From contig NZ_UWOS01000001.1 in the NCBI RefSeq assembly GCF_900604515.1, positions 310,001 through 374,000 on the forward strand: a stretch of 64,000 nucleotides of DNA, written 5' to 3'. Below the pieces are notes generated by a model. It had not been told where the DNA came from and made no database searches. It saw nothing but the letters and a program-made list of their open reading frames with translations. A program made the position numbers and the translations under genes. Positions 702 to 12,805 of the stretch are shown here, one piece after another (position 1 is the first letter of the stretch; each line of letters opens with the position of its first letter). This DNA is from Arcanobacterium ihumii (lineage in GTDB: Bacteria; Actinomycetota; Actinomycetes; Actinomycetales; Actinomycetaceae).

Positions 702-1700
702 TTGGAAATCAAATCACGATGGTCGCGGTCGATGATGCCACGCTTTGCAATTACATTAGTAGTTTTGATTTTCTTTGCTCTCTTGGTATTTTTTATCCGA
801 CCAACTTCCTCCCAGCTTAACGTCATATGTTCAAATAACTTGGAATCGTGTGAGGCGCTGGCGCGCTCCTTTGAGAAAAATTCACATAAACGAGTTTCTG
901 TCGTGCGCCTTCCAACTTCAGAAGCACTTGCCCGCCTTAAAGGCATGAAATATCGCAATGACTTTGATGTTTGGGTAGGTGGGCCGACCGAAGCCTATGT
1001 TTTGGCAGACGACGCCGGAATTCTAGAAACTACTTTCGTTCAAGGTAGAGATCAAACCTGGATTGGGATTTACGGGGGTGTTCTCGCTTTTTGTGTATCT
1101 GATTCAATTAGGAACCAGCCTCACAGCTGGGAAGAACTCGTTCAAACCAATGGAATCTCGCTTGCTTCTCCGAATCCCGCAACATCAGGTACGGCGGGAA
1201 CGATGCTGTGGGTTCAGTACCTTCGGAAACACAATAAAGAAGATATGAATCATTTCTTGAAGCAACTCGATTCCCGAGTTTCTACCTACACGGACTCAGG
1301 AATTGCGCCGGCGAAGCTCGTTGCTAGAAAGAAGGTAGATGTAGGCATTACATTTGCTCCCTACTGCGAACGCGAACGCGCTCGTGGCGCTGACGTCACT
1401 ACGATTTATCCAAAAGATGGAACAGGATTCGAGATTGGTGGCATTGCGAAACTTAAGAATGCGCCTAACCCCGATGTCGCTGAAAAGTTTGTGCAGTATG
1501 CAGCTTCTGATGAAGGCCAAGAAATCAGTGCGGAATCAGCTATGCAAAATCCGATTTCACCAAGTTTAGATAACAATCTTAATCAAGCGTTGAGCACGGT
1601 TGGAGCACCTATTTTCACAGACCGAATCACCACCAACGCACACTTACGAAGCATGTTAATTTCAAACTGGATAAACGTGGTGAGAAATGGTCAATATTAA
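702..1700 (+). CDS. ABC transporter solute-binding protein, FbpA/AfuA-like
   Basis: Extracytoplasmic solute-binding protein of the ferric/organophosphate group (cluster D periplasmic fold), 332 aa. An N-terminal hydrophobic segment (about residues 13-32) acts as signal peptide or membrane anchor; there is no lipobox Cys. The mature part opens with LNVICSNNLESCEALARSFEK, the usual start of this family, and has SPNPATSGTAG in the middle and PKDGTGFEIGG further on. The tandem Tyr pair that binds iron in FbpA-type proteins is absent from the whole chain, which argues against iron. It overlaps the permease gene by 14 nt and heads an operon with an ATPase and a two-component system, so it may both deliver substrate and report it to the kinase. 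The TTG at 702 is given; ATG 732 or 735 are realistic alternative starts. Confidence 0.8.
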   Translation: MEIKSRWSRSMMPRFAITLVVLIFFALLVFFIRPTSSQLNVICSNNLESCEALARSFEKNSHKRVSVVRLPTSEALARLKGMKYRNDFDVWVGGPTEAYVLADDAGILETTFVQGRDQTWIGIYGGVLAFCVSDSIRNQPHSWEELVQTNGISLASPNPATSGTAGTMLWVQYLRKHNKEDMNHFLKQLDSRVSTYTDSGIAPAKLVARKKVDVGITFAPYCERERARGADVTTIYPKDGTGFEIGGIAKLKNAPNPDVAEKFVQYAASDEGQEISAESAMQNPISPSLDNNLNQALSTVGAPIFTDRITTNAHLRSMLISNWINVVRNGQY

Positions 1701-3318
1701 ACGTCCTCTCCCGTTGCCACATTTGGTTATTGCACAGGTCAACCGACCGCAACAGCTAATATTCTGGTTGCTTGGTAGCATAATAGGAATCATTGTTACC
1801 CTTTACATCGCGATACCAAACTACTTTGCCCACGCCTTCGTTTTTAACTTTGCTTATTCCATCGCAATTACATCTTTAAGCAGTATCGTTGCCAGCCTCG
1901 TTGCACTGCCTATTGCGCTTACGATGATGGCGCTCTCTACTCGCAAACTTCTGCTTTATCTAGGATTCCTTTGTATTCCGCTAACAATTTCACCATTAGC
2001 CGTTGCGACTGTTCTTTCCACCGGGCACTTCCAGTTCTCTCCTTATGGTGAAACAATCATTATCGCCACTCAATTCATTTCGGTCTTTCCTTTTTCGGTA
2101 CTGCTTGAACTCTTCGTTCTTGACCGGCTAGGTTCACATTTAGTTATCCAAAGCCTGCAACTGTCTCTTGGATCACCACGTTGGATGTGGAAAGCACATA
2201 AATCCACATTAGCTCAAGCAATCATCCTTTCCTTTGTACTCGGCACCGGAATCCTCCTTGCAGATCCATCCCTTCACCTTGTGTTCGGAGGAACCACTCC
2301 GTTCCTTTCAAACCATATCTTCCACGTACTAAGTTCCGGCGAAGTCCAAACACTCGCCCTTCCGCATACCGCTGCACTGGTGTTGTTGTCTATCATCGCA
2401 GCATTGATACTAAGCGCGACTCTGCAAAGTTCAACTGCTTCCTCAGTAGCGATTTCAGACGACGAAAGAAATATTTTCTGGAAATTCCCTCTCACCCGAC
2501 TCGTAGTACGGCTAGGTAAAGTGATTAGCGGTATATACTTTGGACTCACGATCCTAATTCTTATCCGTATCGTTTTTGACGGCTTCCTCCCAGGGCGACT
2601 CTTAGGATCAACAGCAGCGGACATAACAAAGCTACCTTTTGGTTTCAGCCACGCTCTATGGTCTACGGCCATTTCTGTGATTCCAGTTGTGCTGATTTCT
2701 TGGGCATTGAGTCTTTATTCAGCCAGCATTACACTTCATCGGCCCAAACTAGCTGCTATTTGCAATTCATTGATGGTTTTCCAGCTCCTCATTTCCCTAA
2801 CAGCAGGAGGAATCTTAATCGCATTCCTGCACCAAGATTGGATAGCGATTGGTGGGCTATACCTCGTTCCACCACTAGTTGGAAACGCGGGCTATGGAAA
2901 CGGATACTTTGCGATCGCACTCTCTTATCTGAGCATCGCGTTCCCAGTAGCACACCTCGTGAGTTATTCAGTATTTGAAACCTATCGACCTGCCGTCCTT
3001 ACTGCTCGCGATCTTGGCGCAGGTAGAATCCGAATATTCTTCACGATTATTTTGCCGAACGTTTTCTCTGTTTGGATCCCAACTTTCGCGCTGCTACTAG
3101 GCTTGTTGTTAGCCCGCAACACCCCATCAATCTTCGTTGATTCGGCAACCTTCCCTCAGATCGGTCCCACAATCGTTTCCGCTGCTGAAGAAGGAAATGA
3201 CTCCGTGGTCTACGCGCTCACTGCCGCCTCGTCACTCCTTTCGATCACATTCTTCGTAATCGGTCTTGGTGGCCTACTATTATTCCTAAACCGCCGGAGG
3301 AGCCATGAGCCGATTTAA
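1687..3318 (+). CDS. ABC transporter permease, fused two-domain (FbpB/AfuB-like)
   Basis: Inner-membrane permease of 543 aa with about twelve hydrophobic segments, the size of FbpB/AfuB proteins in which two binding-protein-dependent permease domains are fused in one chain. The C-terminal half carries a recognisable EAA coupling loop (ARDLGAGRIRIFFTIILPN, near residues 437-455). The equivalent loop in the N-terminal half (near 155-175) is degenerate, so the two halves may contact the ATPase unequally. The ATG at 1687 overlaps the end of the binding-protein gene, and the end of this gene overlaps the ATPase gene by 14 nt, so the three are probably translated together. Annotation pipelines usually call this family iron permease; the neighbouring two-component system and antiporter favour a phosphorylated organic substrate. 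Confidence 0.85.
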   Translation: MVNIKRPLPLPHLVIAQVNRPQQLIFWLLGSIIGIIVTLYIAIPNYFAHAFVFNFAYSIAITSLSSIVASLVALPIALTMMALSTRKLLLYLGFLCIPLTISPLAVATVLSTGHFQFSPYGETIIIATQFISVFPFSVLLELFVLDRLGSHLVIQSLQLSLGSPRWMWKAHKSTLAQAIILSFVLGTGILLADPSLHLVFGGTTPFLSNHIFHVLSSGEVQTLALPHTAALVLLSIIAALILSATLQSSTASSVAISDDERNIFWKFPLTRLVVRLGKVISGIYFGLTILILIRIVFDGFLPGRLLGSTAADITKLPFGFSHALWSTAISVIPVVLISWALSLYSASITLHRPKLAAICNSLMVFQLLISLTAGGILIAFLHQDWIAIGGLYLVPPLVGNAGYGNGYFAIALSYLSIAFPVAHLVSYSVFETYRPAVLTARDLGAGRIRIFFTIILPNVFSVWIPTFALLLGLLLARNTPSIFVDSATFPQIGPTIVSAAEEGNDSVVYALTAASSLLSITFFVIGLGGLLLFLNRRRSHEPI

Positions 3319-4411
3319 GACGCAACCTTTTCCCTCTCCCACCGAATCCCATCACGGACTCGTCGTCAAGAACATAAGTATTCATCGTGGCTCAAAACCC
3401 GAACCGGTAGTACGAAACGTTTCACTATCGATCGAGCCGGGAAAGGTTCTTTCCCTGGTTGGACCTTCAGGATCGGGAAAAACTACACTGATGCAAGCAT
3501 TAGCGGGACTTCTCAATGTATCCAAGGGGTCAATCCGCATCGGGGGCAAAGACGTCACCCATCATTCGATCGATCGGAGGCCAACCGGCTACGTATCACA
3601 AGATCCAACGCTTTTCGAAAATATGAACGTGTGGCAAAACGTCGCCTACGGTCTAGACGATCCGGTGATGGCTGACCACAAGTACCACGACATGATTGAC
3701 ATTGCTTTGGCGGAAATGAACATTTCGGGTATCGCTGAAGAAAAACCTTCACGACTCTCGGGAGGTCAGCGCCAACGAGTCGCGCTAGCACGCACCCTCA
3801 TCAGGCGCCCTCACCTTCTCCTTCTCGACGAACCTCTCGCTCATGTAGATGACTCTGTCCGTAAAGTAATCCGAAAAGATATTCTTTTGCACATCCGTCG
3901 TCTCAATATTTCTGCCGTCTACGTAACTCATGACGTTGACGAAGCTTGCGCTATGGGTGATGCCTTGGCAATCATTCGCGATGGCGAAATCGTTCAGTGC
4001 GCCCGTCCACAGGAGGTTTATGAGCAGCCAAAGTCTCGCTTCGTTGCACATTTTATGGGGATCCCCAATATCGTTGACATCAAAGTCGATCGGACTTCTA
4101 CACCGTATCGTGTTTCCCTAGGGAAGAAATTTTGTGCCTTCCCTGGAAATTTTGACGGTGAAAAATCAGTTCTGTGTATTCCTTCTGAACGCATCCGGAT
4201 ACTTCCCAGCAATGAGGGAGAAACTGGAACATCAGTTATCAGGGGCCACATCATTGATCGTTTCTATTCACGCAGTTTTTACGCATACGAAGTCGAAACC
4301 GAGCTCGGCACGATCGTTGTTCGCGAAGTTTCCCATGGTTTAGCAAAAGATATTGGTCAAGGAGTACATCTCGAAATCGACTATGGGTGGGTGGTTCCCT
4401 ATGGAAGCTAA
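3305..4411 (+). CDS. ABC transporter ATP-binding protein, FbpC/AfuC-like
   Basis: ATPase subunit of the same importer, 368 aa. Walker A is GPSGSGKTT (about residues 53-61), the ABC signature is LSGGQRQRVALAR (about 151-163), Walker B with catalytic Glu is LLLLDEPLAHVD (about 171-182) and the switch His lies in VTHDVDEA (about 207-214). The region after about residue 250 is the size of the TOBE-type regulatory extension found in FbpC/PotA/MalK ATPases. An almost perfect Shine-Dalgarno sequence (GGAGGAG, 2 nt before the ATG) lies inside the permease gene, supporting translational coupling. The 3' end overlaps the start of the histidine kinase by 11 nt, so transport and sensing proteins are made from the same transcript. 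Confidence 0.92.
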   Translation: MSRFKTQPFPSPTESHHGLVVKNISIHRGSKPEPVVRNVSLSIEPGKVLSLVGPSGSGKTTLMQALAGLLNVSKGSIRIGGKDVTHHSIDRRPTGYVSQDPTLFENMNVWQNVAYGLDDPVMADHKYHDMIDIALAEMNISGIAEEKPSRLSGGQRQRVALARTLIRRPHLLLLDEPLAHVDDSVRKVIRKDILLHIRRLNISAVYVTHDVDEACAMGDALAIIRDGEIVQCARPQEVYEQPKSRFVAHFMGIPNIVDIKVDRTSTPYRVSLGKKFCAFPGNFDGEKSVLCIPSERIRILPSNEGETGTSVIRGHIIDRFYSRSFYAYEVETELGTIVVREVSHGLAKDIGQGVHLEIDYGWVVPYGS

Positions 4412-5213
4412 CATATTCAGCTTTGTTTCCTTGCTTTCCGTTGTTCTAGTGCTATCAGTGCTAGCAGTAGTTATTATTGCGCAGTGGCAATCGAATCGTG
4501 AGCTCCACCGAAAACTCACCAAAATTGAAATTCGTAATGACTACCTAGAACGCCGCCCTGCGATGATTTCACATGAAATTCGAACTCCGCTTTCCCTTGT
4601 GCAAGGTTCAGCTGAGCTCCTAGCTGAGGAAACTCCCGGACCATTAAACGAACTACAACGTTCTTTTGTGGACACCATTTTTGAAAACTCCCGCCAAGCG
4701 ATCGATATCGCCGAAAACTTCCTTATTGACCTCAATATGGAGATTCGTCCATTACAACTCCAAGAAATCAACATTCGAGCTATCATCGCAGATACTGCCC
4801 GTGAGATACGCAAAATTTTCCCAATCCCGATTAATATCGATGCCGCAGGAGGTTTACTTCCTATCTATGCGGATAAACAACTCATTCGGCAATTGGTGTG
4901 GAACCTGATTAATAACGCTGCACGTCATGCCGAGAGTGAAGACGGAATCACGGTACGAATCGAGAACGGCGAAGGAACCGGTGCCCATATCTCGATTACA
5001 GATAACGGTGGTGGGATGACCGACCAAGAACTAGAAAACCTCTTCACCCCTTTCTATTCAGGAAGTACTCGCCGCCCCGGAAGCGGGATAGGAATGATGG
5101 TCTCAAAGAAGATCGTTGACGTTCACCATGGAAAAATCCTAGTAGACTCAGCAGTAGGGATTGGAACCGTGATTCACATAATCCTTCCGCATGTGCCACC
5201 AAAAGATTCCTAA
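4401..5213 (+). CDS. Sensor histidine kinase with minimal membrane sensor
   Basis: Membrane histidine kinase of 270 aa from the ATG at 4401, chosen because the longer frame would start deep inside the ATPase gene and lacks a hydrophobic start. One transmembrane segment (about residues 7-28) is followed by a short linker and a HisKA domain; the phosphoacceptor is His58 in ISHEIRTPL. The HATPase domain has the N box (WNLINNAARHA), G1 (DNGGGM) and G2 (GSGIGMMVSKKIV). There is no extracytoplasmic sensor domain at all, as only four or so residues precede the membrane segment. The signal therefore probably comes from another protein, most simply the binding protein or the ABC transporter encoded immediately upstream. 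The response regulator follows after 41 nt. Confidence 0.9.
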   Translation: MEANIFSFVSLLSVVLVLSVLAVVIIAQWQSNRELHRKLTKIEIRNDYLERRPAMISHEIRTPLSLVQGSAELLAEETPGPLNELQRSFVDTIFENSRQAIDIAENFLIDLNMEIRPLQLQEINIRAIIADTAREIRKIFPIPINIDAAGGLLPIYADKQLIRQLVWNLINNAARHAESEDGITVRIENGEGTGAHISITDNGGGMTDQELENLFTPFYSGSTRRPGSGIGMMVSKKIVDVHHGKILVDSAVGIGTVIHIILPHVPPKDS

Positions 5214-5254
5214 AAGCAGTTAAGAACACCTTCATAGCAGACCAAGGAAAGCGT

Positions 5255-5956
5255 ATGAAAAAACCTGTTGCACTCGTCGTCGACGACGAAGCTCAGATGG
5301 TTTCTATCATCCGCTTCGCGTTGGAAACCCAAGGGTTTGAATGCTTAGACGCTAAGAATGCCGGTGACGCATGGAGTTTAATTCAGAAAAATTGGATCGA
5401 TCTCGCTGTTCTTGACGTTATGCTGCCAAACGGTTCAGGGGTCGAACTTACGAAGAAGATTCGGCATCACCATCTAAAGTTCCCCATTATTTTGTTGACG
5501 GCACTCGGCGATGAAGAAGATCGCATCCGCGGCCTCGAAGCCGGCGCGGATGACTATGTAACTAAGCCATTTTCACCCCGCGAACTTGCATTGCGCGCGC
5601 TTGCAGCCGCGCGACGGTTCGGTGATCACGATGTATTCCCCACTACCGAAATCGGTCCCCTTAGCATTCACAGCGCTGATTCCACTGCCTACTGGAATGG
5701 ATCAAAATTAGATCTGACCGAGATCCAAGTCAGGTTACTTGGAATACTTGCACAGAAATACGGCGATATCGTCAGCCATCGCGATATTCTCTCGCACGTT
5801 TGGAATACAGCGGAGACGACTGGTGGTCGCGAAATGATTAAGACGTCAATCTACCGTTTACGTAGGGATCTTACACAGCAAGGTATCGAGGAAATTGAAA
5901 TTTCGTCGATTCGTTCCCGTGGATACTTCCTTAAGATCCTCGATACGTCGTCATAA
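5255..5956 (+). CDS. OmpR/PhoB-family response regulator
   Basis: Two-component response regulator of 233 aa. The receiver domain has the acidic pair in VVDDEAQM (residues 8-15), phosphoacceptor Asp54 in LDVMLPNGSG and the conserved Lys in VTKPFSPREL (about 103-112). The C-terminal half is a winged-helix OmpR-type DNA-binding domain (about 135-230) with LTEIQVRLLGILAQ and the recognition helix region around TSIYRLRRDL. It is the partner of the kinase upstream. The most likely target is the promoter of the organophosphate antiporter gene 214 nt downstream, where short direct repeats of the kind bound by this family are present. This differs from the LuxR-type UhpA and AraC-type HptR regulators that control hexose-phosphate uptake in other bacteria. 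Confidence 0.93.
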   Translation: MKKPVALVVDDEAQMVSIIRFALETQGFECLDAKNAGDAWSLIQKNWIDLAVLDVMLPNGSGVELTKKIRHHHLKFPIILLTALGDEEDRIRGLEAGADDYVTKPFSPRELALRALAAARRFGDHDVFPTTEIGPLSIHSADSTAYWNGSKLDLTEIQVRLLGILAQKYGDIVSHRDILSHVWNTAETTGGREMIKTSIYRLRRDLTQQGIEEIEISSIRSRGYFLKILDTSS

Positions 5957-6054
5957 CGCCGGCGTTAAATAGACATAGCTCAGCAAGGATACATCCAATC
6001 GGCACAACAGGCGATTAATACCTAAACGACAAGCTTCGCACTGCGACACGCCTC

Positions 6055-6150
6055 GGTAACAAGGCTGTTACCAACTGTGACCGTGAACGAATCCTTGGTT
6101 ACTCTCTTCCATGCATCCTTAGATATGTAATTGAAACATTGAAGTTTCAA
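6055..6150 (+). promoter_or_regulatory. Candidate response-regulator and operator sites upstream of antiporter gene
   Basis: The 214-nt gap before the antiporter gene holds three ordered elements. A perfect dyad, GGTAAC-N6-GTTACC, lies at 6055-6072. A direct repeat TGTTACC / TGTGACC with exactly 10 bp between starts (6066 and 6076) overlaps it and resembles the tandem half-sites of OmpR/PhoB proteins. A second perfect dyad, TTGAAAC-N6-GTTTCAA, lies at 6131-6150, 20 nt before the ATG at 6171. The Shine-Dalgarno is AAGGAG. The sites are seen directly; their use by the adjacent regulator is inference. Confidence 0.45.
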
Positions 6151-6170
6151 AAATATGTGAAGGAGCAATC

Positions 6171-7553
6171 ATGGCAAAAAGCCTCGGATTCTTATCCGCT
6201 CCCGGACCAGCACCGCGACTCCCCGAGTCACAGATCGCATCTGTGTACAAGAAGGCTCGTTTTAATGCCTTCATGGGTATCTTCATTGGATACGCGGGTT
6301 TCTACCTGATCCGGAATAACGTCTCTCTTGTTTCAGCTATGTTGAAGGAACACGATATCCTCAACACGGTTGGAATCGGTATCGTCGCAAACGCAGTTCT
6401 TTTCTCCTACGGACTTTCCAAGTTCTTCATGGCGATGCTGTCTGATCGAGCAAATGCCCGCTACTTTTTGCCACTGGGTCTTGCACTCTCAGCAATCACG
6501 AACCTCGCAATCGCATTTATTCCGGCGATTTCCGCAAGCGTCGGAGTATTTGCAACCGTCATGTTCATCAACGGCTGGTTCCAAGGAATGGGATGGCCTC
6601 CGTCAGGCCGCGTCCTTGTCCAGTGGTTCTCAACTTCGGAGCGTGGCTGGAAGACGTCGATCTGGAACTGTGCTCACAACGTGGGTGGCGCCGGCGTCGG
6701 TATCGCAGCAGCGTACGCACTTGCACACTGGCAGCGCACTGAAGCTGACTGGACCCCGGCGTTCTGGTTCCCGGCAATCATCGCACTCGTCGTAGCAGCA
6801 ATTGCATTCCTACTCATTCATGATAATCCTGAATCGCTTGGACTCCCTCCAATCGAAGAATACAACGATGACCCAGCAAAAGTTGTCAGCGATACCTCCG
6901 AGCTCGAAGGCTCTTGGTTCAAGGTGGTATGGACCCACGTACTTACCAATCCAGTCATTGTTCTCCTTGCAGTCGCCAACGTATTCGTGTACACGCTACG
7001 TTACGGTGTCTTGAACTGGATTCCGATCTACCTCACCACTGAACTTGGCGTAACAAATACCGAAGGCGGAATCCTCGGATTCTCCATCTACGAAATCGCC
7101 GGTATCGTAGGCACCCTGCTCTGCGGCTGGATTTCGGACAAGGTATTCAAGGGCTGGCGTTCTGGAGCAGGAATGCTCTTCATTGCCGGTGTTGGAATCG
7201 CGCTCGTGATCTACTGGCAGCTCCCAGCAACTGCACCAGCTTGGATCTTCTACCTCTTGATCGCAATGATCGGTGGTTTGATCTATGGTCCAGTAATGCT
7301 CATCGGACTCCAGGCAATCGATCTTTCGCCTAAGCACGTTGCAGGAACCTCCGCAGGATTCACTGGACTCTTCGGTTACCTCCTTGGGGCCTCCCTTGCA
7401 TCTACCGGCGTCGGTATTCTCATTCACAACTTTGGATGGAACGTCACCTACATCTGCCTAATTGTAGTTGTTGCCCTCGCCTTCATCTTGATGATGATCG
7501 TCGGCAAGTACGAGCGCAAGCTCATGGATGAGCACACAGCTCGACACAAGTAA
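6171..7553 (+). CDS. Organophosphate:phosphate antiporter (GlpT/UhpT/PgtP family)
   Basis: Twelve-helix MFS transporter of the OPA family, 460 aa, exchanging an organophosphate for inorganic phosphate across the cytoplasmic membrane. Family hallmarks are GYAGFYLIRNN in helix 1, GWFQGMGWPPSGR (about 135-147), NCAHNVGG (166-173), GLPPIEEY (224-231) and FVYTLRYGVLNW (272-283). The two phosphate-binding arginines of GlpT (R45 and R269) correspond to Arg48 and Arg277, and the GlpT helix-5 His to His169. The loop signature is closest to glycerol-3-phosphate transporters, but substrate choice among glycerol-3-P, hexose-6-P and phosphoglycerate cannot be fixed by eye. It is separated from the two-component genes by its own regulatory region and ends before two hairpins. 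The codon use looks more biased than in the upstream ABC genes, suggesting high expression. Confidence 0.92.
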   Translation: MAKSLGFLSAPGPAPRLPESQIASVYKKARFNAFMGIFIGYAGFYLIRNNVSLVSAMLKEHDILNTVGIGIVANAVLFSYGLSKFFMAMLSDRANARYFLPLGLALSAITNLAIAFIPAISASVGVFATVMFINGWFQGMGWPPSGRVLVQWFSTSERGWKTSIWNCAHNVGGAGVGIAAAYALAHWQRTEADWTPAFWFPAIIALVVAAIAFLLIHDNPESLGLPPIEEYNDDPAKVVSDTSELEGSWFKVVWTHVLTNPVIVLLAVANVFVYTLRYGVLNWIPIYLTTELGVTNTEGGILGFSIYEIAGIVGTLLCGWISDKVFKGWRSGAGMLFIAGVGIALVIYWQLPATAPAWIFYLLIAMIGGLIYGPVMLIGLQAIDLSPKHVAGTSAGFTGLFGYLLGASLASTGVGILIHNFGWNVTYICLIVVVALAFILMMIVGKYERKLMDEHTARHK

Positions 7554-7560
7554 AACGAGA

Positions 7561-7589
7561 GAATCACACTACGCTCTAAAATGTGATTC
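7561..7589 (+). terminator. Weak hairpin after antiporter gene
   Basis: Eight-base-pair stem (GAATCACA / TGTGATTC) with a 13-nt loop, starting 7 nt after the stop codon and followed by only three or four T residues. It could be a weak intrinsic terminator or a 3'-end protecting hairpin ahead of the much stronger one at 7614. Confidence 0.45.
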
Positions 7590-7613
7590 TTTGCCGTGTG
7601 GGCTAGCCACACA

Positions 7614-7651
7614 GAATGGGGCGGCATTGGGATGGGAATGCCGCCCCATTC
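7614..7651 (+). terminator. Strong GC-rich hairpin between antiporter and FNT genes
   Basis: A perfect 15-bp stem (left arm 7614-7628, right arm 7637-7651) with an 8-nt G-rich loop. It follows the first hairpin by 24 nt and is not followed by a clear T tract. It most likely ends antiporter transcription; because it also precedes the FNT gene by 76 nt it could instead be a leader structure. Confidence 0.6.
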
Positions 7652-7727
7652 ATTATGTGAACTAAATGACCACATTTTTCGAGTAAGGTCCCACGTTATT
7701 CGGCTAAATGTTAGGGAGAATGGCTGG

Positions 7728-8561
7728 GTGATATCACTTAACAACACTCTTTCCATTCAGATGAAGTCGGGTCGCCACAAAGCACACGAGGTGGAAAGCC
7801 CGGGAACTTTCATTATCTCAACAATGCTCGCGGGTGCTCTTATTGGAGTTGCAGACATCGCTATGTTCACCACTGCGGGTCCGTTCTACGTAACCCATGC
7901 GCCCGCTGCCATGCTTATCGCGGGCCTTTCGTTCGGTGTCGGCCTCATCTTGGTTGTGACCTCCGGATCGAACCTCGCTACTTCAGCGATGATGGCACTC
8001 CCCCAAGCTGCGACTGGACGCCTTATATCCTGGAAACGCGCTGCGATCGTCTTGCTTCTAGTTTTTCTCGGAAATCTAATCGGTGCGATTTTTCTGTCAC
8101 TTATCATGAGTGGCACGCACGTATTTCACGGCGATACCGCCGCTCAAGGAATGCTTGAAATGTTGATTGTGGCGAAAGCAGAGAAATCTTCACTTGCTCT
8201 TTTTACCCGTGGAATCATGTGTAACGTGCTTGTTTGCTTCGCTATCTGGAGTCAATCTCGCACCAAGAACGACGCCGGTAAGATGATCATCATCTTCCTT
8301 TGCGTAGCTGCGTTTATTTCATCGGGATTTGAACACGTTGTGGCCAATATGACTACCTTCTCCCTCGGTCTTTTCCACGGCATTGATCAAGCGACTCTCC
8401 TCGAAGCCGCACGCAATTTCCTTTTCGTGGGGCTTGGAAATCTCGTTGGTGGAGGCGTTATCGTGGGAGGTTCGATGCTTGCTCTTTCGGGTTCGATTGA
8501 GACAGCTGCGCATAACGCTCATCATATTTCGGACGACGGCGTTATATCCCACGTGAAGTAG
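7728..8561 (+). CDS. Formate/nitrite transporter (FNT) family channel
   Basis: Membrane channel of the FocA/NirC family, 277 aa, forming pentameric pores for small monovalent anions such as formate, nitrite or lactate. The GTG at 7728 is preferred because AGGGAG lies 9 nt upstream and the length then matches the family; the longer open frame runs back through a hairpin and is not coding. Six hydrophobic segments are visible. The GFEHVVANM motif places the conserved pore His at about residue 203, and ARGIMCNVLVC-like sequence in helix 4 (FTRGIMCNVLVC) matches the family. It appears to be a single-gene unit. Nearby ldh and sdh genes fit a fermentative lifestyle in which formate or lactate efflux is useful, but the substrate is not settled by sequence. 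ATG 7761 is an alternative start. Confidence 0.88.
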   Translation: MISLNNTLSIQMKSGRHKAHEVESPGTFIISTMLAGALIGVADIAMFTTAGPFYVTHAPAAMLIAGLSFGVGLILVVTSGSNLATSAMMALPQAATGRLISWKRAAIVLLLVFLGNLIGAIFLSLIMSGTHVFHGDTAAQGMLEMLIVAKAEKSSLALFTRGIMCNVLVCFAIWSQSRTKNDAGKMIIIFLCVAAFISSGFEHVVANMTTFSLGLFHGIDQATLLEAARNFLFVGLGNLVGGGVIVGGSMLALSGSIETAAHNAHHISDDGVISHVK

Positions 8562-8844: not shown

Positions 8845-9765
8845 TCAGGCCTCAACTTCTGGAAACGCCTTGAGAAACTCATCGCGAGTTGCATATGAGG
8901 TCTGTGTTCCGAGCTTGGTTACTGAATCCGCTGCGTAAAGGTTTGCCATACGCAGCGAAGCTTCAACGTCACCGGTTTGGACTAGGTGGTGGCTGAAGCA
9001 ACCGATAAACGCATCTCCTGCACCGGTCGTGTCTTTAGCGTTGACTTGAGTACCAGCAAGAAGAATTTCCTTCTCGTTACTAACCCATAGAACGCCCCTC
9101 CAGCCAAGGGTAACGATTACGTTCTTAACGCCCGCTTCGAGTAATGCTCCCGCGGCGTTGCGAACATCATCAACCGTATCAACTGGCATTCCGGTAAGAA
9201 GAGAAAGCTCAGACTCGTTTGGAACGAAGTACTCACAGTCCTTAACTTCAGCTAGAACGAGGTCTGGCTGAGCAGGTGCTGGGTTTAGCAGAACTGGAAT
9301 GTTGTGTTCTTTTCCGAAACGGATTGCAGCATATACGGTTTCAAGCGGTACTTCTAACTGCAGAACAATGAGTTTGCACTTGGAAATATCTTCTTTGGCA
9401 TCTTCGATATCCTGTGGAGAAAGCTGCGCATTTGCACCCTTCACGATGATGATCGAGTTATGTGATTCAGGATCAACGAAGATCGGTGCAACACCAGAAG
9501 TAGCCTCGGTACGAATGACGTACTTAGTGTCAATTCCGTTTGCTTCGAAATTCTGAATCGTATTATCTGCGAAAACATCATTTCCGACGCGGGTAAGCAT
9601 AAGGACATCCGACCCAAGGCGGGCAGCTGCTACTGCTTGGTTGGCGCCTTTTCCACCACAGCCGAGCTTAAAATCGGGTGCTTCAATCGTTTCGCCCTCT
9701 TTAGGCATACGGTGAATATATGAAATCAAATCCACCATGTTCGAACCGATTACTGCAATATCCAC
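8845..9765 (-). CDS. PfkB-family sugar kinase, probable deoxyribokinase
   Basis: Ribokinase-like PfkB carbohydrate kinase of 306 aa. The first signature includes CGGKGANQA (residues 36-44) and the second is DTTGAGDAF (245-253), with catalytic base Asp251. By similarity alone it would be called RbsK, but it is the last gene of an operon with deoC, a FucP/DeoP-type permease and a mutarotase-like protein, the same set as the Salmonella deoK-deoP-deoX genes for deoxyribose use. A second, separate kinase lies in the rbs operon at 20.0-21.0 kb, so the two are probably specialised. The inferred reaction is ATP-dependent phosphorylation of 2-deoxy-D-ribose at C5, giving the DeoC substrate. The start is 1 nt after the preceding stop codon, which indicates coupling. 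Confidence 0.85.
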   Translation of the reverse strand: MDIAVIGSNMVDLISYIHRMPKEGETIEAPDFKLGCGGKGANQAVAAARLGSDVLMLTRVGNDVFADNTIQNFEANGIDTKYVIRTEATSGVAPIFVDPESHNSIIIVKGANAQLSPQDIEDAKEDISKCKLIVLQLEVPLETVYAAIRFGKEHNIPVLLNPAPAQPDLVLAEVKDCEYFVPNESELSLLTGMPVDTVDDVRNAAGALLEAGVKNVIVTLGWRGVLWVSNEKEILLAGTQVNAKDTTGAGDAFIGCFSHHLVQTGDVEASLRMANLYAADSVTKLGTQTSYATRDEFLKAFPEVEA

Positions 9766-9766
9766 C

Positions 9767-10786
9767 CTAGTTCTCCTTTATTCCGGTGGTCACTGAGAAT
9801 GACTTTGTTTCGCCAGCCCCAAGTTGAATCAATGTTCCAGCCTCCTTCGCTGCCAAGAATCCCTCTGGACGGGATGTCCCTGGAAGAACAAAGGCTGCCA
9901 CTTGCTGATCCGCATTGAAAAGTATCCAACGCGTTGCCACTGGGAACGATTCCGTCTTGAATTTAGTCACAAACGTCGTTCCATCTGGAGCAGAAAGCTC
10001 GAATTCGGCAGTTTCTCCATATTGTGGCAGGTTGTCTGCAAAGTAGACGATCTCAGGGTCGAACTCTTTGGCTTCTGCCAAGGAGTTCGCATCGATCTTT
10101 CCAGACAAAATCTGTTCGTTAATCTCAGTCCACCGTGGGGTCGGGTTGACATGCGCAGGTACCGAGCGACGGAGTTGGAATGCGTCGTCTGGAAGTGACT
10201 GACGGGTAATACCATTCTCGACGAACGCGTAGTTCATGTGGCACATGTACTGCAACGGCATTGGTGCGTAAGCAGAAAGGTTAGTTACGCCAAGATCAAT
10301 ATCGAACAGAGCAGAATCTGCCGTCATCAAAACCGATGGTTGCGCACGGTAGTGTGCACCAAAGCCTTGAACGTACTCGTAAGACGAAACTATACGAACC
10401 TTTTTTCCTTCAACTTCAAGCCAAGCGGAATCCATCGTCGCCGTCGGGAATTCTCCGTGTAGCGGGTGGGAGTCAGCTGGGCTTGGGCACCCTGCGGAAA
10501 GCAAACCCGAATGGAATGCGAAGCAACCGTATGTGTCAACAATTTCGCGGCACGGCTGAGGAGCATCGAACATGTTCTTCATGCGGAGGGATTTGCCATC
10601 AAAGTTGGCGTCCCAGATGATTTGCCCCATGAAGGGTAGAACTTCTACGTATCCACGGGAGTTCTCGATCCGAATTGATTCGATTCCCTTAGGATAGGTG
10701 AAACCTACTACCTTGAAATCATTATTCTGGGCGAAGGTTTTCTCTGCTTCGGTAAATGTATTGCGATGTAATGGAATTCTTAACAT
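9767..10786 (-). CDS. Aldose-1-epimerase-like protein (DUF4432 type)
   Basis: Protein of 339 aa with a galactose-mutarotase-like beta fold. Visible features are a PFMGQIIWDANFDG segment near residue 51, FHSGLLSAGCPSPAD near 90 and HPLHGEFPTA near 107, the last two resembling the active-site region of DUF4432/aldose-1-epimerase proteins. No signal peptide is present. Position between a sugar permease and a sugar kinase suggests it interconverts anomers of the incoming pentose; the counterpart in the Salmonella deoxyribose cluster is DeoX/DeoM. Substrate assignment is inference from context. It starts 14 nt after the permease stop codon. Confidence 0.75.
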   Translation of the reverse strand: MLRIPLHRNTFTEAEKTFAQNNDFKVVGFTYPKGIESIRIENSRGYVEVLPFMGQIIWDANFDGKSLRMKNMFDAPQPCREIVDTYGCFAFHSGLLSAGCPSPADSHPLHGEFPTATMDSAWLEVEGKKVRIVSSYEYVQGFGAHYRAQPSVLMTADSALFDIDLGVTNLSAYAPMPLQYMCHMNYAFVENGITRQSLPDDAFQLRRSVPAHVNPTPRWTEINEQILSGKIDANSLAEAKEFDPEIVYFADNLPQYGETAEFELSAPDGTTFVTKFKTESFPVATRWILFNADQQVAAFVLPGTSRPEGFLAAKEAGTLIQLGAGETKSFSVTTGIKEN

Positions 10787-10800
10787 CTATCTATTTCCTC

Positions 10801-12162
10801 TCAAGCGACCTTGCCTGCACGGTAGCGACGCAGGAAGTATACAAGCACGGCCAAGAAGCAAACGAGCGATACTGAGAACGCGGTCTGCATGGAACCGGTT
10901 GAGTCAGAAACGAAACCTTGGATAACTGGGATTACTGCACCACCAATGATCGACATAACGATCACGGCGCCACCGGTTTCGGTGTGACGCTTGTCTTCAA
11001 TTGAGTCAAGGGTACGAGCGTAGATGGTTGCCCAACAAGGGCCAAAGAGACCGGAGGTCAAGATCGCGGCATAAACAGCGGTCATATTTGGTACGAAGAT
11101 AACGTAAGCAAGTGCAAGAACACCAGCAACCGAGTAGCCAATGAGCACGAGGTCAGCATTGAACCTCGTCATCAAGATGTTCGCGAAAACCTTGCCAAGG
11201 AAGAAGGCAACGAATGCTGCAACCATATAGTTGGATGCTGCGCGTTCATTCAAGCTGTCGTCAAGGTTGAGAGCCAAACGAATCGTGAATGACCAAACCG
11301 CCGTCTGCATTCCGACGTATAGGAACTGAGCGAGGATCCCCTCACGGAACTTAGCATTCTTGACCAGGTAAGAAAGGGTCTCACCGATTGTCGCCTTGGT
11401 TTCGTGATGATCACGCATTGGCTTGCAGTGTGGGAACTGGGTAATTGCGATAATGATGAACAGAATAGCCAAAACGATGATAATGAAGCGGTAAGGCTGC
11501 AAGGTGCGCTGAAGCATGTCGTTCGCAAGCTGAGTGCGCTCTGCACCAGAAAGCTCGCCGAGTTGCTTGTGGAGCGCGTCGCCTTCGGTGAAGATAAGGT
11601 ACTTACCAAGTAAGATACCGAAGATTGAGCCAAGCGGGTAGAAGGTCTGTGATATGTTCAAACGAAGAGTTGCAAGACGGCGAGGACCAATCATCGAGGA
11701 GTAAGTATTTGCCGAGGTCTCAAGGAAGGAAAGACCGGTTGCAATGGCGAAGAGCGCTGCGAGGAACACGGTGTAGGTTGCCATATGTGAAGCCGGGAAA
11801 AACAGCGTACAACCAATAATGTAGAAGCTCAGACCAACCAAGATGCCCGATTTGTAGCTCCACTTACGGATAACTCGCGATGCTGGGATAGCAAGAAGGA
11901 AGTAGCCACCATAGAAAGCGGATTGAACGAATGCAGATGCGAAGTCTGAAAGTTCGAAGATCGCCTTGAACTGGGTGATGAGGATGTCATTCAAGCTCGC
12001 GGCTGCACCCCACATCGGGAAGCAGATTGAGAGCAGAATGTACTGGAGAATCGGCGTCTTGTTGAGGTAACCGTCCGAGAGTTGAAGGGACGGATCTTTA
12101 ACGAGACCAAAAGTTTCGTTCTTCACACCCTTTTCGTGGGTGGAGTTATCAATTGTTGTCAT
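10801..12162 (-). CDS. FucP-family MFS sugar permease, probable deoxyribose transporter
   Basis: Twelve-helix sugar:proton symporter of the L-fucose permease subfamily, 453 aa from the ATG at 12162. This start is preferred over the longer frame because GGAG lies upstream and it begins 1 nt after the deoC stop. Typical sequence includes ILLSICFPMWGAAASLNDIL in helix 1 and AFVQSAFYGGYFLLAIPAS in helix 2, both close to FucP. A large loop (about 200-240) separates the halves. In Salmonella the deoxyribose permease DeoP belongs to this same subfamily, and the neighbouring deoC, mutarotase-like and kinase genes make 2-deoxy-D-ribose (or deoxynucleoside-derived sugar) the best-supported substrate. 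Confidence 0.82.
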   Translation of the reverse strand: MTTIDNSTHEKGVKNETFGLVKDPSLQLSDGYLNKTPILQYILLSICFPMWGAAASLNDILITQFKAIFELSDFASAFVQSAFYGGYFLLAIPASRVIRKWSYKSGILVGLSFYIIGCTLFFPASHMATYTVFLAALFAIATGLSFLETSANTYSSMIGPRRLATLRLNISQTFYPLGSIFGILLGKYLIFTEGDALHKQLGELSGAERTQLANDMLQRTLQPYRFIIIVLAILFIIIAITQFPHCKPMRDHHETKATIGETLSYLVKNAKFREGILAQFLYVGMQTAVWSFTIRLALNLDDSLNERAASNYMVAAFVAFFLGKVFANILMTRFNADLVLIGYSVAGVLALAYVIFVPNMTAVYAAILTSGLFGPCWATIYARTLDSIEDKRHTETGGAVIVMSIIGGAVIPVIQGFVSDSTGSMQTAFSVSLVCFLAVLVYFLRRYRAGKVA

Positions 12163-12163
12163 T

Positions 12164-12805
12164 TTACTCTCCGATGAGTGATTTGCCGGCCGATGCTCCA
12201 ATGCGATTGGCTCCAGCATTTACCATTTCATTAAAATCAGCGGCGGTGCGGATTCCGCCTGATGCCTTGACTCCGAAGTCGGGACCAACTGTTTTCCGCA
12301 TGAGTGAAACAGCATGAGCTGTCGCACCGCCGGTCGAGAAACCGGTCGATGTTTTCACAAACCTTGCGCCCGACGCAACGGATGCTTCGCAAGCACGCAC
12401 GATTTCATCGTCGGTAAGGAGACAGGTTTCTAGGATCACTTTGACAAGGGCGCTTCCAGAAACGTCTACGACGGCAGCAATGTCCGATTCAACGAGGTCC
12501 CAGTTTCCGTCTTTAACCGCACCGATATTGATCACCATATCAACTTCAACCGCACCGGCTTCGACCGCTTGCTTTGCTTCGTATGCTTTCGCACCTGATG
12601 TCATCGCACCGAGTGGAAAGCCGACGACGGTACAAATGTTTACGTCAGATCCAGCGAGCAATTCGACGCAGGTTTCGATCCACGTAGGATTGATGCATAC
12701 CGCTCCCATCCCCCACTCGATTGCTTCAGAGCACAATTGTGCTACTTGTGCATGAGAAGCATCAGGTTTTAGCAGGGTATGATCGATCATCTTTGATTTA
12801 TTCAC
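12164..12805 (-). CDS. deoC: Deoxyribose-phosphate aldolase
   Basis: Class I aldolase of 213 aa that splits 2-deoxyribose-5-phosphate into glyceraldehyde-3-phosphate and acetaldehyde. The Schiff-base Lys is Lys151 in [14 protein letters not shown]; the second active-site Lys is Lys180 in VKASGGIRT, and the proton-relay Asp is Asp89 in EVDMVINIG. The GTG at 12805 is chosen because AAAGGAG lies 8 nt upstream and the chain then begins [14 protein letters not shown] as in other DeoC proteins. It is the first gene of the deoxyribose operon. The 211-nt gap before it separates it from the deoR-like gene on the same strand and carries a candidate operator. Confidence 0.95.

Follow-up and report, generated by a model that had tools for sequence, protein, structure and literature searches.

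In Staphylococcus aureus, the kinase HptS learns of glucose-6-phosphate (G6P) through its extracytoplasmic domain, which is contacted by the binding protein HptA; the HptA-HptS-HptR-UhpT system joins this input from a solute-binding protein (SBP) of the AfuA superfamily to a two-component system and an organophosphate:phosphate antiporter (according to the accessible portions of PMC8774646). AfuABC of Actinobacillus and Citrobacter has a reported role in import, and no dedicated one-target kinase is described in the accessible portions of PMC4546632 and PMC8427247. Two systems have kinases that read a transporter: PhoR, without a canonical periplasmic sensor domain, reads the ATP-binding cassette (ABC) importer PstSCAB (excerpts of PMC6978683), and BceS, without an extracellular domain, reads the ABC transporter BceAB (excerpts of PMC6978683 and PMC7828314). 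Here we describe a six-gene locus of Arcanobacterium ihumii, at positions 702 to 7553 of a stretch of 64,000 nucleotides (contig NZ_UWOS01000001.1, positions 310,001 to 374,000; the window in what follows), that holds an ABC importer, a two-component system and a GlpT-type antiporter. We consider it fairly probable, from the sequence data, that this locus is a ligand-induced switch with one target, the antiporter, and that the ABC complex acts as its receptor.

All six open reading frames (ORFs) named in a first-pass annotation of this DNA are present, and the Pfam and NCBIfam gene types agree with it, including the OmpR-type regulator, for which PhoB is the best-scoring model:

702 to 1700, + strand: AfuA-like SBP gene (SBP_bac_11/SBP_bac_6), TTG start
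1687 to 3318, + strand: fused two-half ABC permease gene, about 12 transmembrane (TM) segments (BPD_transp_1)
3305 to 4411, + strand: ABC ATPase gene (ABC_tran) with Walker A, Q-loop, LSGGQ, Walker B and H-loop all intact
4401 to 5213, + strand: histidine kinase gene (HisKA/HATPase_c), ATG start
5255 to 5956, + strand: OmpR/PhoB-type response regulator gene (Response_reg/Trans_reg_C), D54 read from the sequence
6171 to 7553, + strand: GlpT-type organophosphate:phosphate antiporter gene, glpT (MFS_1; best NCBIfam model glpT)

Overlaps of 11-14 bases link the first four genes, followed by gaps of 41 and 214 bases. For the kinase, the program's ORF list also has a longer form that starts with TTG at 4353. 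Between 702 and 7553 there is no further ORF of at least 80 amino acids, except for ones overlapping the six genes.

In purpose the locus is HptARS-like and in architecture it is Pst/Bce-like, a case of transporter-coupled two-component signalling. Unlike HptS, its kinase has no extracytoplasmic domain for a binding protein to contact and, unlike in HptARS-UhpT, a full ABC importer is kept and the antiporter is GlpT-type. With AfuABC it shares the phosphate cage of the SBP and the equivalents of Tyr103 and Glu229, but His205 and Asp206 are replaced. Like PstSCAB-PhoU-PhoR/PhoB, it combines an ABC importer and a kinase without canonical periplasmic sensor domain with a PhoB-type regulator and a direct-repeat operator, direct repeats being also what the PhoB operator consists of; different are the absence of a PhoU gene from the cluster, the AfuA-like SBP, the single predicted target and the one-TM kinase, as the TM layout of PhoR is another one. 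BceAB shares the use of an ABC transporter as sensor, but BceB has a big extracellular loop and handles peptide antibiotics, while the importer here is SBP-dependent and has no such loop: the permease has 12 hydropathy segments and the gaps between them never exceed about 40 residues. Literature searches, mostly at the level of search results, found no recognisable description of such a locus in Actinomycetaceae.

Conservation of the cluster, its operator and its antiporter

SBP homologues (E<=1e-20) were found in 83 of 213 Actinomycetaceae genomes and in 7 of 396 genomes of a phylum-wide sample, the window's own included. Neighbourhoods were examined for 68 loci first and then for the 34 remaining places from the family search. 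SBP, kinase, regulator and antiporter occur together in 42 of the 68 loci and in the window, and the ATPase is present in all these clusters with the exception of L122, where the contig ends; another 17 loci have kinase, regulator and ABC genes without the antiporter. No antiporter lies within 6.5 kb of any of the 34 added places, 25 of which have a kinase. Seen from the antiporter (E<=1e-60), which is present in 56 family genomes, 42 copies are in the cluster, one is in a partial cluster (L170) and 13 stand alone within about 6 kb. Three gene orders exist: ABC-kinase-regulator-glpT in the window and five loci, kinase-regulator-glpT-ABC in 34 loci (plus L122, listed apart only because open frames overlap) and kinase-regulator-ABC-glpT in two, one of them with glpT on the opposite strand. 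Broken frames were noticed among the 42 loci only in L114 (SBP, kinase) and L123. The cluster is not a chance neighbourhood and recurs in other genera with differing gene orders; the ABC genes, the two-component system and the antiporter form a single evolutionary unit. The first-pass annotation had claimed one locus and had called for a neighbourhood survey in this family: with 42 of the 56 antiporter-bearing genomes carrying the cluster in three orders, the survey bears the claim out. In A. bovis and A. pluranimalium all six genes have the identical order and the same neighbours, an exonuclease gene and a formate-transporter gene, the latter being a formate/nitrite transporter gene (PF01226) at 7755-8561 of the window, 3' of glpT.

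The first-pass annotation had also given the antiporter gene a promoter region of its own. The gap between regulator gene and glpT does contain a conserved operator, which that annotation had overlooked:

6055 to 6061, + strand: inverted half-site GGTAACA of the operator
6066 to 6082, + strand: operator core TGTTACC-AAC-TGTGACC, a direct repeat of period 10
6097 to 6103, + strand: third direct half-site GGTTACT, 31 bases after the first

The layout before glpT is GGTAACA-N4-TGTTACC-N3-TGTGACC plus a further half-site, about 105 bp upstream of the gene (6055-6103) within the 214-base gap; the half-site at 6097-6103 would lie roughly at the position of the -35 element. TGTNACCNNNTGTNACC has one exact match in the window's genome, and this is upstream of glpT. 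An operator matrix (17 bases, 37 sites) was scored for glpT by leave-one-out, which is a partial control as training rows are related: before glpT, the operator scores above the 99th shuffle percentile in 40 of the 43 clusters, at a median distance of 113 bp. In the same clusters it is above threshold before the SBP gene in 0/43, the kinase gene in 1/43, the regulator gene in 2/43 and the ATPase gene in 0/42. The antiporter-less clade lay outside the training set; its operator stands before the SBP gene (15 of 17 loci) and in no case before the kinase, regulator or ATPase gene (0/17 each). Among the 25 added antiporter-less loci, 15 have it before the SBP gene, and several others show weaker copies at a similar distance. 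Exact matches to TGTKACCNNNTGTKACC number 13 in the 31 genomes with an antiporter cluster, one each in 13 genomes and all upstream of glpT; the reversed pattern has no match in the 31 genomes.

Antiporters that stand alone without a two-component system have no operator of at least 12 bits before glpT (14 of 14). In contrast, L170, in which kinase and regulator lie without intact ABC genes, has the operator before glpT, and in L019 and L136, where glpT lies away from the regulator gene, the operator is still found at glpT. The operator thus tracks the two-component system and marks its likely target, and on this sequence pattern the antiporter is very likely the target of the regulator. L170 is also unusual in that antiporter and ABC ATPase are merged in one frame of 858 amino acids (5414-7987), while SBP and permease genes are apparently lost and kinase, regulator and operator are still there.

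Several observations weigh against this assignment. Three of the 43 glpT operators are below the shuffle threshold, an exact match to TGTKACCNNNTGTKACC is lacking in 18 of the 31 genomes, whose copies are weaker, and 10 of the 25 added antiporter-less loci have no operator above threshold. In most clusters glpT directly follows the regulator gene, so that a position near the target can be told apart from one after the regulator only in L019 and L136 and, in the case of the SBP gene, in L070. A further operator precedes the kinase gene in L019. The operator of L071 lies before a glycerophosphodiesterase gene and not before glpT; this locus has the glycerophosphodiesterase (PF03009) and a further major facilitator superfamily (MFS) transporter gene between regulator and antiporter (9880-11987, - strand). 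The link between regulator and operator is one of association.

A perfect inverted repeat, TTGAAAC-N6-GTTTCAA, lies at 6131-6150, just 5' of the ribosome-binding region of glpT; it is conserved in A. bovis and A. pluranimalium, has one exact place in the genome and may be another operator or form a hairpin in the mRNA.

Among NCBIfam models the antiporter matches glpT best (TIGR00712, 463.7 bits, under the equivalog cut-off of 632.55 bits), followed by PgtP, UhpC and UhpT. In the PDB it matches E. coli GlpT (1pw4) at 5e-114, and it is 42% identical to E. coli GlpT versus 30% to UhpT. When the cluster antiporters are aligned with E. coli GlpT, UhpT and UhpC, R45, K80, H165, R269 and Y362 are found in 43/43 and W138 in 42/43, and the window's protein keeps all six; we take the first four to be substrate-site residues and W138 and Y362 to be GlpT-specific. 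The positions of UhpT D388 and K391, presumably specificity positions, are A and T as in GlpT (43/43). Unlike in E. coli GlpT, position 46 is Asn instead of Lys, in 43/43. The antiporter is thus, by its residues, GlpT-type and not UhpT-type, with glycerol-3-phosphate as the predicted substrate, and the earlier placement in the GlpT/UhpT/PgtP family is narrowed to its GlpT side. A glycerophosphodiesterase gene is found inside cluster L071, as mentioned, and next to L166 and L169, two antiporters that stand alone. The window's genome encodes three glycerophosphodiesterases, all outside the cluster, as well as a glycerol kinase that shares 56% identity with E. coli GlpK. Together with the GlpT-type positions, these genes point to glycerol-3-phosphate. 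One genome (G507) has a second, interrupted copy of the antiporter.

Signal input and the role of the ABC transporter

The window's kinase starts with MEANIFSF and has one hydrophobic helix (residues 8-26), ahead of the phospho-acceptor H58; it has a single N-terminal TM and no extracytoplasmic domain. By a simple hydropathy count, 39 of the antiporter-linked kinases (window included) have one TM, one has two and three are unreadable; of the first 17 antiporter-less kinases, 15 have one, one has two and one has none. As the kinase has no outside domain, external input in the manner of HptS is unavailable, and by analogy with the transporter-reading kinases the input probably comes via the ABC complex with its SBP as receptor. 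The first-pass annotation had recognised the two-component system as the sensing unit and had missed that its kinase lacks a sensor domain.

We propose that the membrane-anchored, AfuA-like SBP would catch a small organophosphate, most likely glycerol-3-phosphate, outside the cell and dock on the ABC permease/ATPase. The kinase, with only one TM helix and no part on the outer side of the membrane, would read the state of the ABC complex, either occupancy or turnover, via membrane or cytosolic contacts, in the manner of PhoR with PstSCAB and of BceS with BceAB, and would then phosphorylate the OmpR/PhoB-type regulator. The regulator would bind the TGTTACC direct repeats upstream of glpT and activate transcription. 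The sequences themselves show the conserved unit, the residues of the pocket, the topology of the kinase, and the operator together with its tie to the two-component system; ligand, direction of the signal, contact between ABC complex and kinase, and binding of the regulator to the operator are what we infer in this scheme.

The ABC genes of antiporter-linked loci have diverged strongly. Among locus pairs with a regulator identity of 45-55%, the median identities are 35% (SBP), 19% (permease) and 36% (ATPase) in the 560 antiporter-linked pairs, which are not independent, versus 70%, 69% and 62% in the 34 antiporter-less pairs. Between the window and A. bovis, identity falls from 94% for the antiporter through 74% for kinase and regulator, 73% for the SBP and 61% for the ATPase to 57% for the permease. 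The window's permease is divergent, scoring 23.6 bits against BPD_transp_1, below the Pfam cut-off of 26.4 bits. Permeases were obtained from 40 of 43 antiporter-linked and 14 of 17 antiporter-less clusters: the EAA coupling loops are near-textbook in all 14 of the latter and divergent in the former, nearer to canonical in the Micropruina locus L019, and the central Gly of the antiporter-linked loops is kept in 33/40 (first half) and 40/40 (second half). In the window, the first-half loop is degenerate (residues 155-175) and the second-half loop near canonical (from residue 439). The antiporter-linked ATPases all have the Walker A Lys, the Walker B Asp/Glu and the H-loop His (42/42), while the Q-loop Gln is present in 21/42 and the first signature Gly in 27/42, versus 17/17 in the antiporter-less set; the window's ATPase is intact at all catalytic and coupling points checked. 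We reject a reading of the fast-evolving ABC genes as pseudogenes, given the catalytic ATPase residues kept in 42/42. Among three Arcanobacterium species, the ratio of non-synonymous to synonymous rates (dN/dS) is 0.02-0.09 for SBP, ATPase, kinase, regulator and antiporter where it is estimable, dS being mostly saturated and the permease never estimable.

These patterns suggest that coupling and docking were rebuilt while the use of ATP was kept. With some hesitation, we would go a step further and propose that the ABC importer has been converted to a dedicated receptor, which binds ligand and ATP and mainly signals to the kinase, with import being minor or lost; this conversion would have passed through stages such as the SBP/permease fusions described below and the altered coupling loops. 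A receptor role explains the rebuilt coupling well, and the fast change at the coupling interface suits a receptor no less than an importer; an importer with fast-evolving contacts may also account for the pattern. The corresponding alternative, a fully working high-affinity importer of the organophosphate of GlpT, whose flux is sensed by the kinase so that transport and sensing go together, is a possibility to be taken seriously, although we do not lean towards it. It would account for the complete set of motifs in the window's ATPase, the near-canonical second-half EAA loop and the low dN/dS values, and has a precedent in PstSCAB-PhoR. It does not readily account for permeases and ATPases that are so much less similar than in the antiporter-less loci at equal regulator divergence, for the Q-loop Gln missing in half of the antiporter-linked ATPases or for the degenerate first-half loop of the window.

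It is unlikely that the ABC transporter is a bystander and that the SBP passes the signal straight to the kinase by way of its own TM helix and cytosolic tail. The idea arises from the N-terminus of the window's SBP, a membrane anchor (TM) with a short cytosolic tail, SRW: in the window's subclade the TM anchor replaces the SBP lipobox, and an S[RL]W tail is found in the window and 22 of 42 antiporter-linked loci, which also backs the TTG start of the SBP gene. However, relatives with lipoprotein-like SBPs (15/42 antiporter-linked, 16/17 antiporter-less) share the kinase topology, and SBP and permease are fused in one ORF in 13 clusters (L018, L064, L066, L067, L107-L113, L115, L116). In the 11 fusions inspected, the end of the SBP seems, by eye, to enter what would be the second TM helix of the permease.

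Quite unlikely is a two-component system that senses phosphate limitation or a phosphonate, with glpT as a phosphorus-scavenging output. Its appeal lies in the model scores: the regulator scores best with PhoB, the kinase models are AtoS and then PnpS and PhoR, and the top NCBIfam models of SBP and ATPase are PhnS2 and PhnT2 (2-aminoethylphosphonate), although the kinase, SBP and ATPase scores are all far below cut-off. Against it, the operator core has a single exact copy in the window's genome, at glpT, which does not make a phosphate regulon, and the antiporter positions are GlpT-type.

Pocket and ligand of the binding protein

The first-pass annotation had related the locus to AfuABC and had proposed two routes for a phosphorylated sugar, an ABC importer and an antiporter, under one sensor. 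The SBP is indeed AfuA-like: the best PDB matches of the SBP are 8x1a, AfuA (4r72) and P5PA (6wce), with FbpA chains matching weakly and 6lkg, which we take to be HptA, distantly. For AfuA, the accessible portions of PMC4546632 report that H205A, D206A and E229A each abolish G6P binding and that S37 and T150 hold the phosphate; further ligand contacts and phosphate-coordinating residues of AfuA-type proteins are given in the accessible portions of PMC8427247. In our alignment, the phosphate cage (S37, S148-G149-T150, S184-G185 in AfuA) is kept in the window's SBP as T72, S162-G163-T164 and S199-G200, and Y124 and E244 are the equivalents of Tyr103 and Glu229. His205 and Asp206 are P220 and Y221, so that two of three sugar-ring residues are replaced.

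The same holds for the whole antiporter-linked set, here the 42 loci and the window (n=43). S148-G149-T150, G185 and E229 are present in 43/43, S184 in 41/43 and S or T at position 37 in the 42 of 42 that are readable. H205 and D206 are absent in 43/43: P, A, S, Q, N or T takes the place of His205, and Asp206 is replaced by Y in 40 proteins and by H in three. The antiporter-less two-component relatives retain H-D-E in all of the first 17 and in 22 of the 25 added ones; together, D206 and E229 are present in 42/42 and H205 in 39/42. D206 separates the two sets fully (0/43 versus 42/42) and H205 nearly so (0/43 versus 39/42): the wider survey weakened the statements on H205 and on the operator for the antiporter-less relatives, while the antiporter-linked evidence is unchanged. 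Three antiporter-less loci with a two-component system (L211, L212, L234) have Q-D-E and a cage in which TSST replaces SGT; they may represent a third class of ligand. Four more distant SBPs without a nearby kinase (L240-L243) have S-D-E. In an SBP tree of the first set of loci, the 42 antiporter-linked sequences (without L114) group in a single clade with support 0.85, and 22 sequences of the H-D type group in another with support 0.92. Independent repeated loss of H205 and D206 is rejected in view of this single antiporter-linked clade.

A model with hexose phosphate on both routes is thus very unlikely. It would be consistent with the AfuA-like family, the phosphate cage and the intact motifs of the window's ATPase, but the two residues needed for G6P in AfuA are replaced in 43/43, the antiporter has GlpT positions and, in the gene order of the window, the operator is upstream of glpT only. 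Hexose phosphate as ligand is not supported. The idea of two uptake routes under one sensor is only partly supported by these sequences: the unit is shared, but the window has its operator before glpT only and the ABC interface is fast-evolving.

Our best guess for the ligand, as predicted from pocket and antiporter, is glycerol-3-phosphate or another small organophosphate. Three points count against a firmer assignment. Because of the single origin in the tree, pocket change and antiporter linkage amount to one ancient event. An AlphaFold model of the SBP from four sequences (window, L016, L017 and L018; L019 was excluded for an X) reached a mean predicted local distance difference test (pLDDT) score of 41.3 and was not used, so that the pocket assignment rests on sequence alignment. 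Given the 2-aminoethylphosphonate model scores, the ligand could also be a different organophosphate or a phosphonate.

FbpA has tandem tyrosines that bind Fe(III). An iron importer of the FbpA type with a coincidental neighbour can be dismissed almost entirely: the SBP is of the same broad superfamily and has weak PDB matches to FbpA chains, but the Tyr-Tyr pair is absent from the window's SBP, as the first-pass annotation had seen, 8x1a, AfuA and P5PA match far better, and the linkage to an organophosphate antiporter is conserved; iron binding was rejected on the missing pair and the PDB ranking.

Neighbouring features, sister systems and meaning

Downstream of the cluster, 8845-12219 (- strand) holds three genes that look, by eye, like a ribokinase-type sugar kinase, an aldose-epimerase-like or DUF4432-like protein and a sugar MFS permease. 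A sigma-70 scan gave one promoter-like site versus a shuffle mean of 8.5, and a terminator scan gave eight sites versus 7.2 in shuffles, which is about equal.

The 17 antiporter-less sister systems (L069, L070, L073, L127-L130, L132-L135, L137, L139, L140, L147, L148, L152) are possibly self-inducing hexose-phosphate importers: they have a similar two-component system and an SBP with the H-D-E residues, the operator stands before the SBP gene in 15 of the 17, and the coupling loops are canonical in the 14 permeases obtained.

Kinases that lack a sensor domain of their own and take their input from an ABC transporter are known best from Pst-PhoR and Bce-type systems. In the family described here, this arrangement would take a compact form: a single importer, kinase, regulator and operator, and apparently a single target, with three gene orders. 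Together with the sister clade, it would allow swaps of parts that test the use of an importer as receptor directly, and it would put right the labelling of loci of this kind as systems for iron or hexose phosphate.

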